NCBI GenBank assembly: GCA_903904665.1
Contig: CAIVDO010000131.1
Coordinates: 1 to 43,368 of the forward strand
Reading direction: 5' to 3'
DNA length: 43,368 nucleotides
DNA from: an uncultured Actinomycetes bacterium
Lineage (GTDB): Bacteria; Actinomycetota; Actinomycetes; Nanopelagicales; Nanopelagicaceae
The translations under genes and the position numbers were made by a program. The notes under the pieces were generated by a model. The model did not search any database, was not told where the DNA came from, and was given only the letters and a program-made list of their open reading frames with translations. Within the stretch, counting starts at the first letter, position 1, and each line of letters starts with the position of its first letter. Positions 17,062-37,613 of the stretch are shown piece by piece.

Positions 17062-17483
17062 TGTCTGCTCGCAGTAAAGCCCGTAAGCAAGCTTTAGATC
17101 TACTTTTTGAGGCAGATATTCGCGGCACAAGTTCACTAGATACTCTCAATCTACGTGATGTTGTTGAATCAGGCCCAGATGCTCGACCTATTCGCGATTA
17201 CACCCGATTGCTTGTTGTAGGCGTTAATGAGAACTCTCGAAAGATTGATGAACTGATAACAACCTATGCCCAGGGCTGGGATATGGATCGTTTACCAAAT
17301 GTTGATCGCAACATATTAAGACTTGGTATCTATGAAATTCTTTGGGCCAGTGATATTCCCGACGGTGTAGCAATCGATGAAGCCCTTGATTTAGCCAAAG
17401 AGCTCTCTACCGATGAGTCAGCGGGCTATATCCACGGTGTTTTAGGGCGAATTTCATCCCTAAAGGAAAATCTCTCTATTTAA
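17061..17483 (+). CDS. nusB: Transcription antitermination factor NusB (GTG start)
   Basis: SARSKARKQALDLLFEADIR; PNVDRNILRLGIYEILW; IPDGVAIDEALDLAKELSTDESAGYIHGVLGRI. Confidence 0.94.
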   Translation: MSARSKARKQALDLLFEADIRGTSSLDTLNLRDVVESGPDARPIRDYTRLLVVGVNENSRKIDELITTYAQGWDMDRLPNVDRNILRLGIYEILWASDIPDGVAIDEALDLAKELSTDESAGYIHGVLGRISSLKENLSI

Positions 17484-17961
17484 CTTCGACGAGCAACTGC
17501 TTTAGCTGTAGATAGCTCACTAATTCATCGATGCTACATCCAATGGACAGTGTGAGATATTCAAAATCCTTTTCACGCAAGGAGAGAACCTCGCCGTTGA
17601 AATCCTGGCGCAGATTAATAACTCCAGCTATAAATGAGAGCAAAATCTTGTGCGTCAATGAAACATCACTGCGCTGTGATTGTGTAAATTCACGCACACG
17701 GCGCAGATCGATGATGATCGTGTTGAACGTAGTGTGTGTAGGTGAGTGGCCAGTTAAGAGATAGGCCAGCGGGATTTCATAAAAATCAGCGATCTCATGC
17801 GCCTTTTTCACAGTTAAGGCGCGATCACTGCGCTCATAGGAGCCAAGGGAGATGGCATTTATTCCCCCGCCACTTTGCACTTGAACGTCGATAAGGGTCA
17901 GGCCTCGTGAGCGGCGAATGGAGCGAAGGCGTGCTGCGATTTCATCTAATGGTGAGTTCAT
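17476..17961 (-). CDS. bldD: BldD-like transcriptional regulator (Xre HTH + C-terminal c-di-GMP-binding-like domain)
   Basis: LRSIRRSRGLTLIDVQVQSGGGINAISLGSYERSDRALTVKKAHEIADFYEIPLAYLL and LRQDFNGEVLSLREKD match BldD as I recall it; located between nusB and pyrR. Start chosen at ATG 17961 (TACTCT-N6-ATG); longer GTG start at 17988 is possible. Confidence 0.8.
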   Translation of the reverse strand: MNSPLDEIAARLRSIRRSRGLTLIDVQVQSGGGINAISLGSYERSDRALTVKKAHEIADFYEIPLAYLLTGHSPTHTTFNTIIIDLRRVREFTQSQRSDVSLTHKILLSFIAGVINLRQDFNGEVLSLREKDFEYLTLSIGCSIDELVSYLQLKQLLVEVK

Positions 17962-18027
17962 GGAGTCAGAGTAGGTAGAAGCGGACACACACGAAGGTAG
18001 ATATCCACAGGGAGAATCTCTTGCTGC

Positions 18028-27026: not shown

Positions 27027-27734
27027 ATGGATAAAGCTGCTCCTATTGTTCTTGCTGTAGATACTAATGATTTAGAGATTGCTAAAGCATGGGTGAGCGC
27101 AACCGATGGCGTTATCTCTGTTGTGAAATTAGGTCTTGAGTTCTATTTGAACTTTGGAAATGATGGTATTAAGGCGATTGCAGATAGCGCTTCAACAGAG
27201 ATTTTCTTAGATCTTAAATTGCATGACATTCCACATACAGTCGCTGGCGCAGCAAGAGCAGTCTCTTACTTGCGACCAAAATATCTCACCGTTCATGCCT
27301 CAGGTGGCAGCGCCATGGTGAGGGCAGCAGTGGATGCAATGCCCTCTACCCAGATAACTGGTGTCACAGTCTTGACTTCATTGTCAGAAAAGGATGTTGA
27401 TGCGATCGGATTTAGATCTCATGCTTTGGATTCAGCAGTTGGATTGGCAAAGATTGCAATCTCTGGGGGAGCGCGTGCAATTGTTTGTTCCCCACTTGAA
27501 ATTTTAGCGATACGAGAAGTTATTGGGGATGAAGTAACGATCATTACACCGGGAGTTCGTCCTAGCGACTCGCCATCAGGAGATGATCAAGCCAGAACTA
27601 TGACGCCTCGCGAGGCAATTGATAGAGGCGCCAATTTAGTTGTAATTGGACGTCCCATAACCCAATCTTTCGTCAATGGGGCCCAAGCAATGCGTGAGCG
27701 GGCCATTGAGATAGCTGGGCACATTCTCAACTAG
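27027..27734 (+). CDS. pyrF: Orotidine-5'-phosphate decarboxylase, type 1
   Basis: IVLAVDTNDLEIAKAWV; VVKLGLEFYLNFG; IFLDLKLHDIPHTV (DxKxxD in type-1 context); ITPGVRPSDSPSGDDQARTMTPREAIDRGANLVVIGRPI. Confidence 0.93.
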   Translation: MDKAAPIVLAVDTNDLEIAKAWVSATDGVISVVKLGLEFYLNFGNDGIKAIADSASTEIFLDLKLHDIPHTVAGAARAVSYLRPKYLTVHASGGSAMVRAAVDAMPSTQITGVTVLTSLSEKDVDAIGFRSHALDSAVGLAKIAISGGARAIVCSPLEILAIREVIGDEVTIITPGVRPSDSPSGDDQARTMTPREAIDRGANLVVIGRPITQSFVNGAQAMRERAIEIAGHILN

Positions 27735-27759
27735 CAACATATGCGGCTAGATTTAGCAC

Positions 27760-28632
27760 ATGGGTGCACCTCCGCAATTAACTCCAGAGCAACGTAGCGC
27801 CGCCCTTGCCAAAGCAGCCCAATCCCGCAAACGAAGAGCAGAGATTAAATCGAGAATTAAAAGCGGCGATTTTTCTATCGATGCAGTTTTGGAGCTATCA
27901 AACTCCGACGAAGCGATTGCAAAGATGCGCGTGCGAGAGTTATTAGAGGCGCTTTCAGGGGTTGGAAAAATCAGAGCGCAGGCCCTCATGGAGAGGTTAA
28001 ATATCTCTGCAACACGTAGAATTGGCGGTCTTGGCCGACATCAAATTAAGGAACTGCGTAACGAATTTATGAAGACAACGCATGCCATTCGACCTGGCAA
28101 ATTAATAGTTTTGTCCGGTCCCGGTGGAGTTGGAAAAAGCACAGTGGCTGCCCTTCTTCGCAAGTCGGGAGATTTCTGGGTCAGTGTCTCAGCAACTACA
28201 AGGGCACCACGTGCAAATGAACTCAATGGCATTGATTACTTCTTTATCTCTGTCGATGAATTTGAGCGAAGAGTGAAAGCCGATGAGTTTCTAGAGTGGG
28301 CACAGTTTGCAGGCAACCGTTATGGCACTCCCAGTATGGAAGTTGAGGATGCATTACTTCGTGGTGAAAATGTCTTACTTGAAATTGAGATTGATGGTGC
28401 TAAGCAAGTCAAAGCCCATCTTCCTCAAGCGATTTTGGTTTTCTTAGAGCCACCATCATGGGAGGAGTTAGTAGCCCGGCTGGAAGGACGCGGGACCGAT
28501 GATCCAGAGCGCAGGGCTCATCGCTTGCAACTGGCCCAAGAAGAGCTTGCCGCAGCCTCATTTTTCGACCATGTCATCGTTAATGACTCGGTCGAGCGAG
28601 TTGTTTCTCAACTGGTATCATTTGCCTCTTGA
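27760..28632 (+). CDS. Fusion: N-terminal actinobacterial integration host factor (mIHF) + C-terminal guanylate kinase
   Basis: One uninterrupted 290-codon frame. Residues ~1-103: [38 protein letters not shown]...[42 protein letters not shown] (mIHF). From M104: [16 protein letters not shown]...[21 protein letters not shown]...[13 protein letters not shown]...[14 protein letters not shown]...GRGTDDPE (Gmk). Confidence 0.9.
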
Positions 28633-28682: not shown

Positions 28683-28931
28683 ATGGATGGCATCACAAAT
28701 CCACCGATTGATGAACTTTTAGATAAGGCCGGCTCTAAGTACAGCCTTGTTTTGTATGCAGCCAAGCGTGCTCGTCAGATCAATGCATATTATTCACAAC
28801 TAGGTGAAGGTCTCCTTGAATACGTAGGACCACTAGTTGAAACACATGTTCATGAGAAGCCACTATCTATCGCACTTCGCGAGATTAATGACGGCCTGCT
28901 CACGATTGAAAATCTAGAACCAACCGCTTAA
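28683..28931 (+). CDS. rpoZ: DNA-directed RNA polymerase omega subunit
   Basis: [56 protein letters not shown] at 28683 rather than ORF start 28629. Confidence 0.92.
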
Positions 28932-36935: not shown

Positions 36936-37613
36936 GTGTCAGTTATTACATGGTTTTTTGAAAGTAGCCTTCATTTTGGCAGTAAATCAATTGCTGTACG
37001 CGAAATCATCGGCGGAGTTCTAGGTCTCACTAGCGCTATTTTGGGCATGAGACGCAAAGTTCTAGCATGGCCGATAGGAATCTTGGGCGATGCCTTACTT
37101 TTCACAGTTTTCCTCGGAGCAGTCTTTGCTTACGCAGATCAGCCCTCAGGTAATTTCTATGGCCAGGCCAGTCGCAACTTACTACTCATCATTGTCAGTG
37201 TGTATGGATGGATACGTTGGACAAACCACTCTCGCGCCAATGGATTAGAGCAACCAGCTGTAAATCCACGATGGACAACAATGAAAGAAAAACAAGTTCT
37301 AGTACCGATTATCGTTCTCTTCTTCTTCCTCTCTATGCAGATATTTAAAGGATTAGGGGAGTCAGGTAGCTGGTTGTTGGTAGATACATGGATATTTACT
37401 GGCACAGCCCTTGCCACCTATGGCATGAGCCGAGGCTACGTTGAGTTCTGGTTGGTGTGGATCGCTGTTGACTTAGTGGGAGTTCCCTTTGCATTCAAAA
37501 ATGGCTACTACCCAACGGGTACGCTCTATGCAATCTATCTACCCTTTGTTATTTGGGGATTTATCTCTTGGCTTCGTATTTCTAAGCAAGAGAAATTGGC
37601 AACATCGAAGTAA
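36936..37613 (+). CDS. ribM: PnuC-family riboflavin transporter (PnuX/RibM type), GTG start
   Basis: VREIIGGVLGLTSAILGMRRKVLAWPIGILGDALLFTVFLGAVF...FYGQASRNLLLIIVSVYGWIRW; FMN riboswitch directly upstream. Confidence 0.88.
   Translation: MSVITWFFESSLHFGSKSIAVREIIGGVLGLTSAILGMRRKVLAWPIGILGDALLFTVFLGAVFAYADQPSGNFYGQASRNLLLIIVSVYGWIRWTNHSRANGLEQPAVNPRWTTMKEKQVLVPIIVLFFFLSMQIFKGLGESGSWLLVDTWIFTGTALATYGMSRGYVEFWLVWIAVDLVGVPFAFKNGYYPTGTLYAIYLPFVIWGFISWLRISKQEKLATSK

Follow-up and report, generated by a model that had tools for sequence, protein, structure and literature searches.

A single uninterrupted reading frame in the window (the whole 43,368-nucleotide stretch that was analysed) joins a complete actinobacterial IHF (mIHF/sIHF) to a complete guanylate kinase (Gmk), and comparison with related sequences makes it quite likely that the full fusion is the functional product, a bifunctional housekeeping protein formed from merged neighbours. 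The gene (27760..28632, + strand) comprises 290 codons plus a TGA stop, starts with ATG and contains no internal stop when its frame is read in the window. Because an in-frame TAG lies just 5′ of it at 27754-27756, the ATG at 27760 is the earliest possible start. The mIHF domain (27760..28068, +; residues 1-103), with an S13-like helix-two-turn-helix (H2TH) at residues 33-103, was matched by the actino_IHF model NF041260 at residues 5-103 (124.5 bits against a cut-off of 60, model positions 3-101 of 102) and by H2TH_5 (PF22525) over its full length at residues 33-103 (E 1e-24, 86.8 bits). After an interdomain linker of about nine residues (28069..28095, +; residues 104-112), the guanylate kinase domain (28096..28629, +; residues 113-290) was matched by guanyl_kin (TIGR03263; residues 113-288, 216.7 bits against an equivalog cut-off of 160.45) and by Guanylate_kin (PF00625; residues 114-287, E 1e-43). 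Its P-loop and GMP-site residues are intact: the P-loop and S144, R148, R151, Y160, E179, Y188 and T190 were invariant among the 36 sequences compared, and we take these GMP-site residues to correspond to those of the yeast enzyme. The Pfam and NCBIfam matches within a stop-free frame bear out the first-pass annotation, which had read two complete domains in one frame.

The gene lies between pyrF (27027..27734, +; orotidine-5'-phosphate decarboxylase, named from sequence and synteny), from which it is separated by a 25-nt gap, and rpoZ (28683..28931, +; RNA polymerase omega), which is in conserved synteny. In the window's own genome, which is 81% complete, the fusion was the sole mIHF and the sole Gmk found, and no second mIHF above the NF041260 cut-off was detected. 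Elsewhere in the window, an FMN riboswitch (RF00050, 36738-36864, 98.7 bits) lies upstream of a gene of the NMN_transporter family (PnuC/PnuX-like, 36936-37613), which suggests a flavin-regulated vitamin transporter.

The first-pass annotation had proposed a search for the architecture across Nanopelagicales and other Actinobacteria. The fusion is no peculiarity of this sequence: it was found in about 165 of the 196 genomes with a match (201 genomes of the order searched), finished ones included, as well as in two further families, f81 and f79 (families and genera are given by working numbers). Among named organisms, the closest are freshwater actinobacterial MAGs, Candidatus Planktophila and IMCC19121. 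For genera g1, g2, g4, g6, g9 and g16, among the matches listed, every row covering both domains was one stop-free frame. The split state was found in 28 genomes of the order, from genera g5, g7, g8, g11 and g13, while G068 and G096, which look like local breaks, were counted neither as fused nor as split. The mIHF-bearing frame spans about 250-336 codons in fused genera versus 105-123 codons in g5, g7, g8 and g11. A sample of 61 genomes from the order, made up of the window's own genome and 60 that are at least 95% complete, showed exactly one mIHF per genome, and Gmk was single-copy above the cut-off in all 10 genomes tested. Fused and split members of the order share one operon slot, car-pyr-mIHF-Gmk-rpoZ-coaBC-metK-priA.

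Outside the order, the same stop-free architecture occurred in family f81 (11 of 11 sampled, open frames of 260-457 codons) and in two members of family f79, with both NCBIfam models above cut-off and in the same domain order. These proteins differ from the window protein in their linkers and in a more diverged mIHF domain; the mIHF model scores were lowest in f81, at 64-79 bits against the cut-off of 60. In the same class-level search, the remaining f79 members were hit in the Gmk part alone. Elsewhere in the class, mIHF and Gmk are mostly encoded by two neighbouring genes, in many cases sharing a frame and separated by one stop, in agreement with the earlier statement that mihF and gmk are neighbouring but separate genes in Actinobacteria such as Mycobacterium and Streptomyces. 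A fusion in Actinomyces/Schaalia, suspected from whole-query tblastn matches, was rejected because stops or different frames separate the genes there. In family f93, which belongs to the same order as f81, an actino_IHF match was absent from all 11 sampled genomes (0.8-2.7 Mb, 99% complete).

We placed these states on a tree built from eight genes of the neighbourhood (3348 columns). The split genera g8 and g5 occupy the base of the order. One crown clade (g1, g2 and g16) is entirely fused, and the other contains g3, g4, g6 and g9, all fused, together with the fused g10 and the split g7 and g11; the unfused lineage f84 sits between f81 and Nanopelagicales. If gains and losses cost the same, a minimum of five state changes is needed, which may be five fusions or three fusions plus two fissions; weighting each gain at three would permit fewer gains and more losses. 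The g10 fusion has an extra-long linker containing a Met where the gmk start would be, and the linkers appear to favour separate gains of the fusion without settling their count. Overall, the fusion is likely to have originated three times or more, from adjacent genes that were tightly coupled. Among split relatives, the two genes overlap, at ATGA in G032 and G037 and at TGATG in G078; in G126 (L208) and G154 (L202), of genus g7, the mIHF stop TAG abuts the gmk ATG in the same frame (TAGATG), one substitution from an in-frame fusion. Fusion by stop loss or a small indel in a touching gene pair would be a small step. The route that we propose would start from back-to-back, coupled and sometimes overlapping genes in an old operon, in which stop loss or a small indel would cause mIHF to be read into Gmk.

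Both domains are under purifying selection. Among pairs sharing at least 80% identity, the median dN/dS was 0.060 for mIHF, 0.038 for Gmk and highest, at 0.143, for the linker, these ratios being rough with dS near saturation. In an AlphaFold model (pTM 0.59), both domains were mostly above 80 pLDDT and the linker region formed the lowest-confidence block (residues 101-110, mean pLDDT 61), i.e., the protein is modelled as two folded units without fixed mutual orientation. Linker sequence and length vary among relatives, and neither the linker comparison nor the model gave any sign of a conserved interdomain interface. With phmmer, the mIHF part was closest in sequence to S. coelicolor sIHF (4itq, E 3.3e-27) and mycobacterial mIHF (6tob, E 1.3e-24), and Foldseek returned M. 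tuberculosis Gmk (1s4q/1znw, TMt 0.88-0.89, E about 1e-21) as the closest fold to the modelled Gmk part.

In the DNA-binding loop of the mIHF domain, arginines 85, 86 and 88 (sIHF/mIHF numbering) become Arg86, Arg87 and Gly89 in the window protein. The matching residues in the long mIHF numbering, Arg170/171/173, have been implicated in DNA binding. The third arginine is absent from all 84 fused ORFs compared (not all of them independent), those of f81 and f79 included, its place being taken by Gln, Ala, Gly, Lys or Val; most retain the first two arginines. Because this replacement extends to all fused ORFs examined, DNA binding of the fusion may be altered. Leaving aside crown Nanopelagicales, the stand-alone mIHFs examined from the class carry RRxRGLG or RRxKGLG. 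Within the class the contrast is striking, but we rejected the missing third arginine as a hallmark of fused proteins because Gln or Lys at this position is also seen in free-standing mIHFs from other classes and in the split genera g7 and g11; it is a correlation only.

In the reading that we favour, one bifunctional housekeeping protein, with an N-terminal mIHF, a flexible linker and a C-terminal Gmk, would serve as the cell's only mIHF and only Gmk, and would be retained since one polypeptide suffices. We infer that the whole polypeptide is made and that both activities persist. An mIHF bearing a second folded protein appears workable because msIHF-EGFP and other tagged versions of the essential msIHF supported growth of M. 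smegmatis (PMC10028186). Proteolysis may release either domain, a point that we count against this reading. More speculatively, a fixed 1:1 dosage and economy of translation might be what maintains the fusion in streamlined genomes, a default argument against which stands the split genus g7, of similar genome size (about 1.0-1.3 Mb). It is likewise speculative that part of the Gmk pool would be held on DNA as a by-product and not as a dedicated regulatory device.

Tethering of Gmk to DNA, or coupling between nucleoid state and GTP supply, would be plausible. That the fusion is a regulatory device, with Gmk tethered to the nucleoid and GMP-to-GDP flux or nucleotide/(p)ppGpp state coupled to mIHF DNA binding, seems unlikely to us. 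We are similarly doubtful of a nucleoid-bound Gmk that evolved several times and in which mIHF DNA binding and Gmk GDP production would influence one another, as might happen if a Gmk dimer made mIHF bivalent; if true, chromosome compaction would respond to guanine nucleotide supply. GMK, described as a dimer, is a target of (p)ppGpp inhibition in several phyla other than Proteobacteria (PMC6783271), and a dimer could present two mIHF domains. The presence of the fusion in at least three lineages, a Rel-type protein encoded in the genome, and HU as the sole other nucleoid protein found of those searched, with no Lsr2, also speak for a device of this kind, whereas the short, variable and low-confidence linker without a visible conserved interface, the split relatives inside the same order and the absence of the third loop arginine from all fused proteins examined speak against it.

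The search for nucleoid proteins covered HU, mIHF and Lsr2 in seven order genomes (G000 and six relatives): HU was present in all seven, mIHF was fused or, in G025, free, and Lsr2 was not found. The Rel-type (p)ppGpp synthetase/hydrolase gene (137-2299, with a PF04607 match at 836-1168) lies 25 kb upstream of the fusion; the two share the window and nothing connects them. The window of this streamlined genome also contains a gene for an HTH protein (17476-17988, - strand) whose C-terminal domain resembles that of BldD (PF21179, scoring just over the cut-off); in Streptomyces, BldD is a c-di-GMP-binding protein.

A further proposal of the first-pass annotation, that one gene gives two products through initiation at an internal ATG yielding free Gmk beside the fusion, appears decidedly improbable. 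The in-frame ATG (Met104; 28069..28071, +), at best a tentative second start, and the putative internal Shine-Dalgarno AAGGAA (28048..28053, +), which coincides with Lys-Glu codons of the mIHF tail, are both present as described, but they lie 15 nt apart and not about 12. Met104 is kept in nearly all close relatives, and the predicted anti-SD pairing upstream of it (-5.1 kcal/mol) is near the median for real window starts (-5.5); against this, 22% of all window ATGs pair with the anti-SD as strongly. In a codon comparison, AAGGAA gives way to AAAGAG, AAACAG and ACACAG in relatives. Met104 itself is confined to a subclade and absent in other fused genera, and the junctions of fused L056, L057, L140, L150, L154, L156, L168 and L173-L175 contain no ATG, GTG or TTG. 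Judged from these comparisons, the fusion does not in general yield free Gmk by internal initiation, and the two-product claim is poorly supported.

It is very improbable that the mIHF half is decaying into a remnant that has lost DNA binding and serves as a mere N-terminal extension of Gmk. The missing third loop arginine, common to every fused lineage, and the low mIHF scores of f81 would fit such decay, but the mIHF dN/dS of about 0.06, the 124.5-bit match of the window protein, the net charge (+9 versus +7 for sIHF) with Arg86 and Arg87 kept, and the failure to find another mIHF in the genome all argue against it. Finally, a sequencing or assembly artefact deleting a stop codon between two genes, which the annotation had named as a possible refutation in the form of a frameshift, can practically be dismissed: although many Actinobacteria have mIHF and gmk in a shared frame, separated by one stop codon, the same junction recurs with no length change in independent assemblies at 87-89% amino-acid identity, and its length is identical across many such assemblies, including finished single-contig genomes.

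Both halves of the protein are well-known families; mIHF is essential in mycobacteria and Gmk in most bacteria. The fusion makes these two essential functions one polypeptide in a widespread freshwater group, with their ratio fixed and with a Gmk that may sit on the chromosome. It would also constitute a large part of the recognised chromatin toolkit, since only HU and the fusion were found of the nucleoid proteins searched. Repeated fusion alongside close split relatives offers a natural comparison for asking whether a functional link exists between nucleoid proteins and nucleotide metabolism or whether the two are simply neighbours. In a literature search that left subscription papers largely outside its reach, we found no published report of the mIHF-Gmk fusion, its breadth, its repeated origin or its sole-copy status. 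NF041260 is typed equivalog_domain by NCBI, which suggests that curators allow for mIHF within longer proteins.

The mihF gene of M. tuberculosis is followed by gmk and rpoZ, and its deletion has a polar effect on both (PMC6155035); the mIHF part of the window protein occupies the same operon place upstream of gmk-rpoZ. It aligns end to end over about 102 residues with mIHF (Rv1388, M. tuberculosis, 6tob) and sIHF (SCO1480, S. coelicolor, 4itq and 6bek), with which it shares the H2TH domain and the equivalents of Arg85 and Arg86. Unlike these proteins, it is not free-standing (typically about 105 aa) and forms part of a 290-aa ORF, and the equivalents of Arg88 and of the turn residue Pro65 are Gly89 and Ser66. 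With Gmk (Rv1389; 1s4q, 1znw), the fusion shares the fold, the P-loop and the GMP-site residues, whereas a predicted DNA-binding domain at its N-terminal end takes the place of the free N-terminus.
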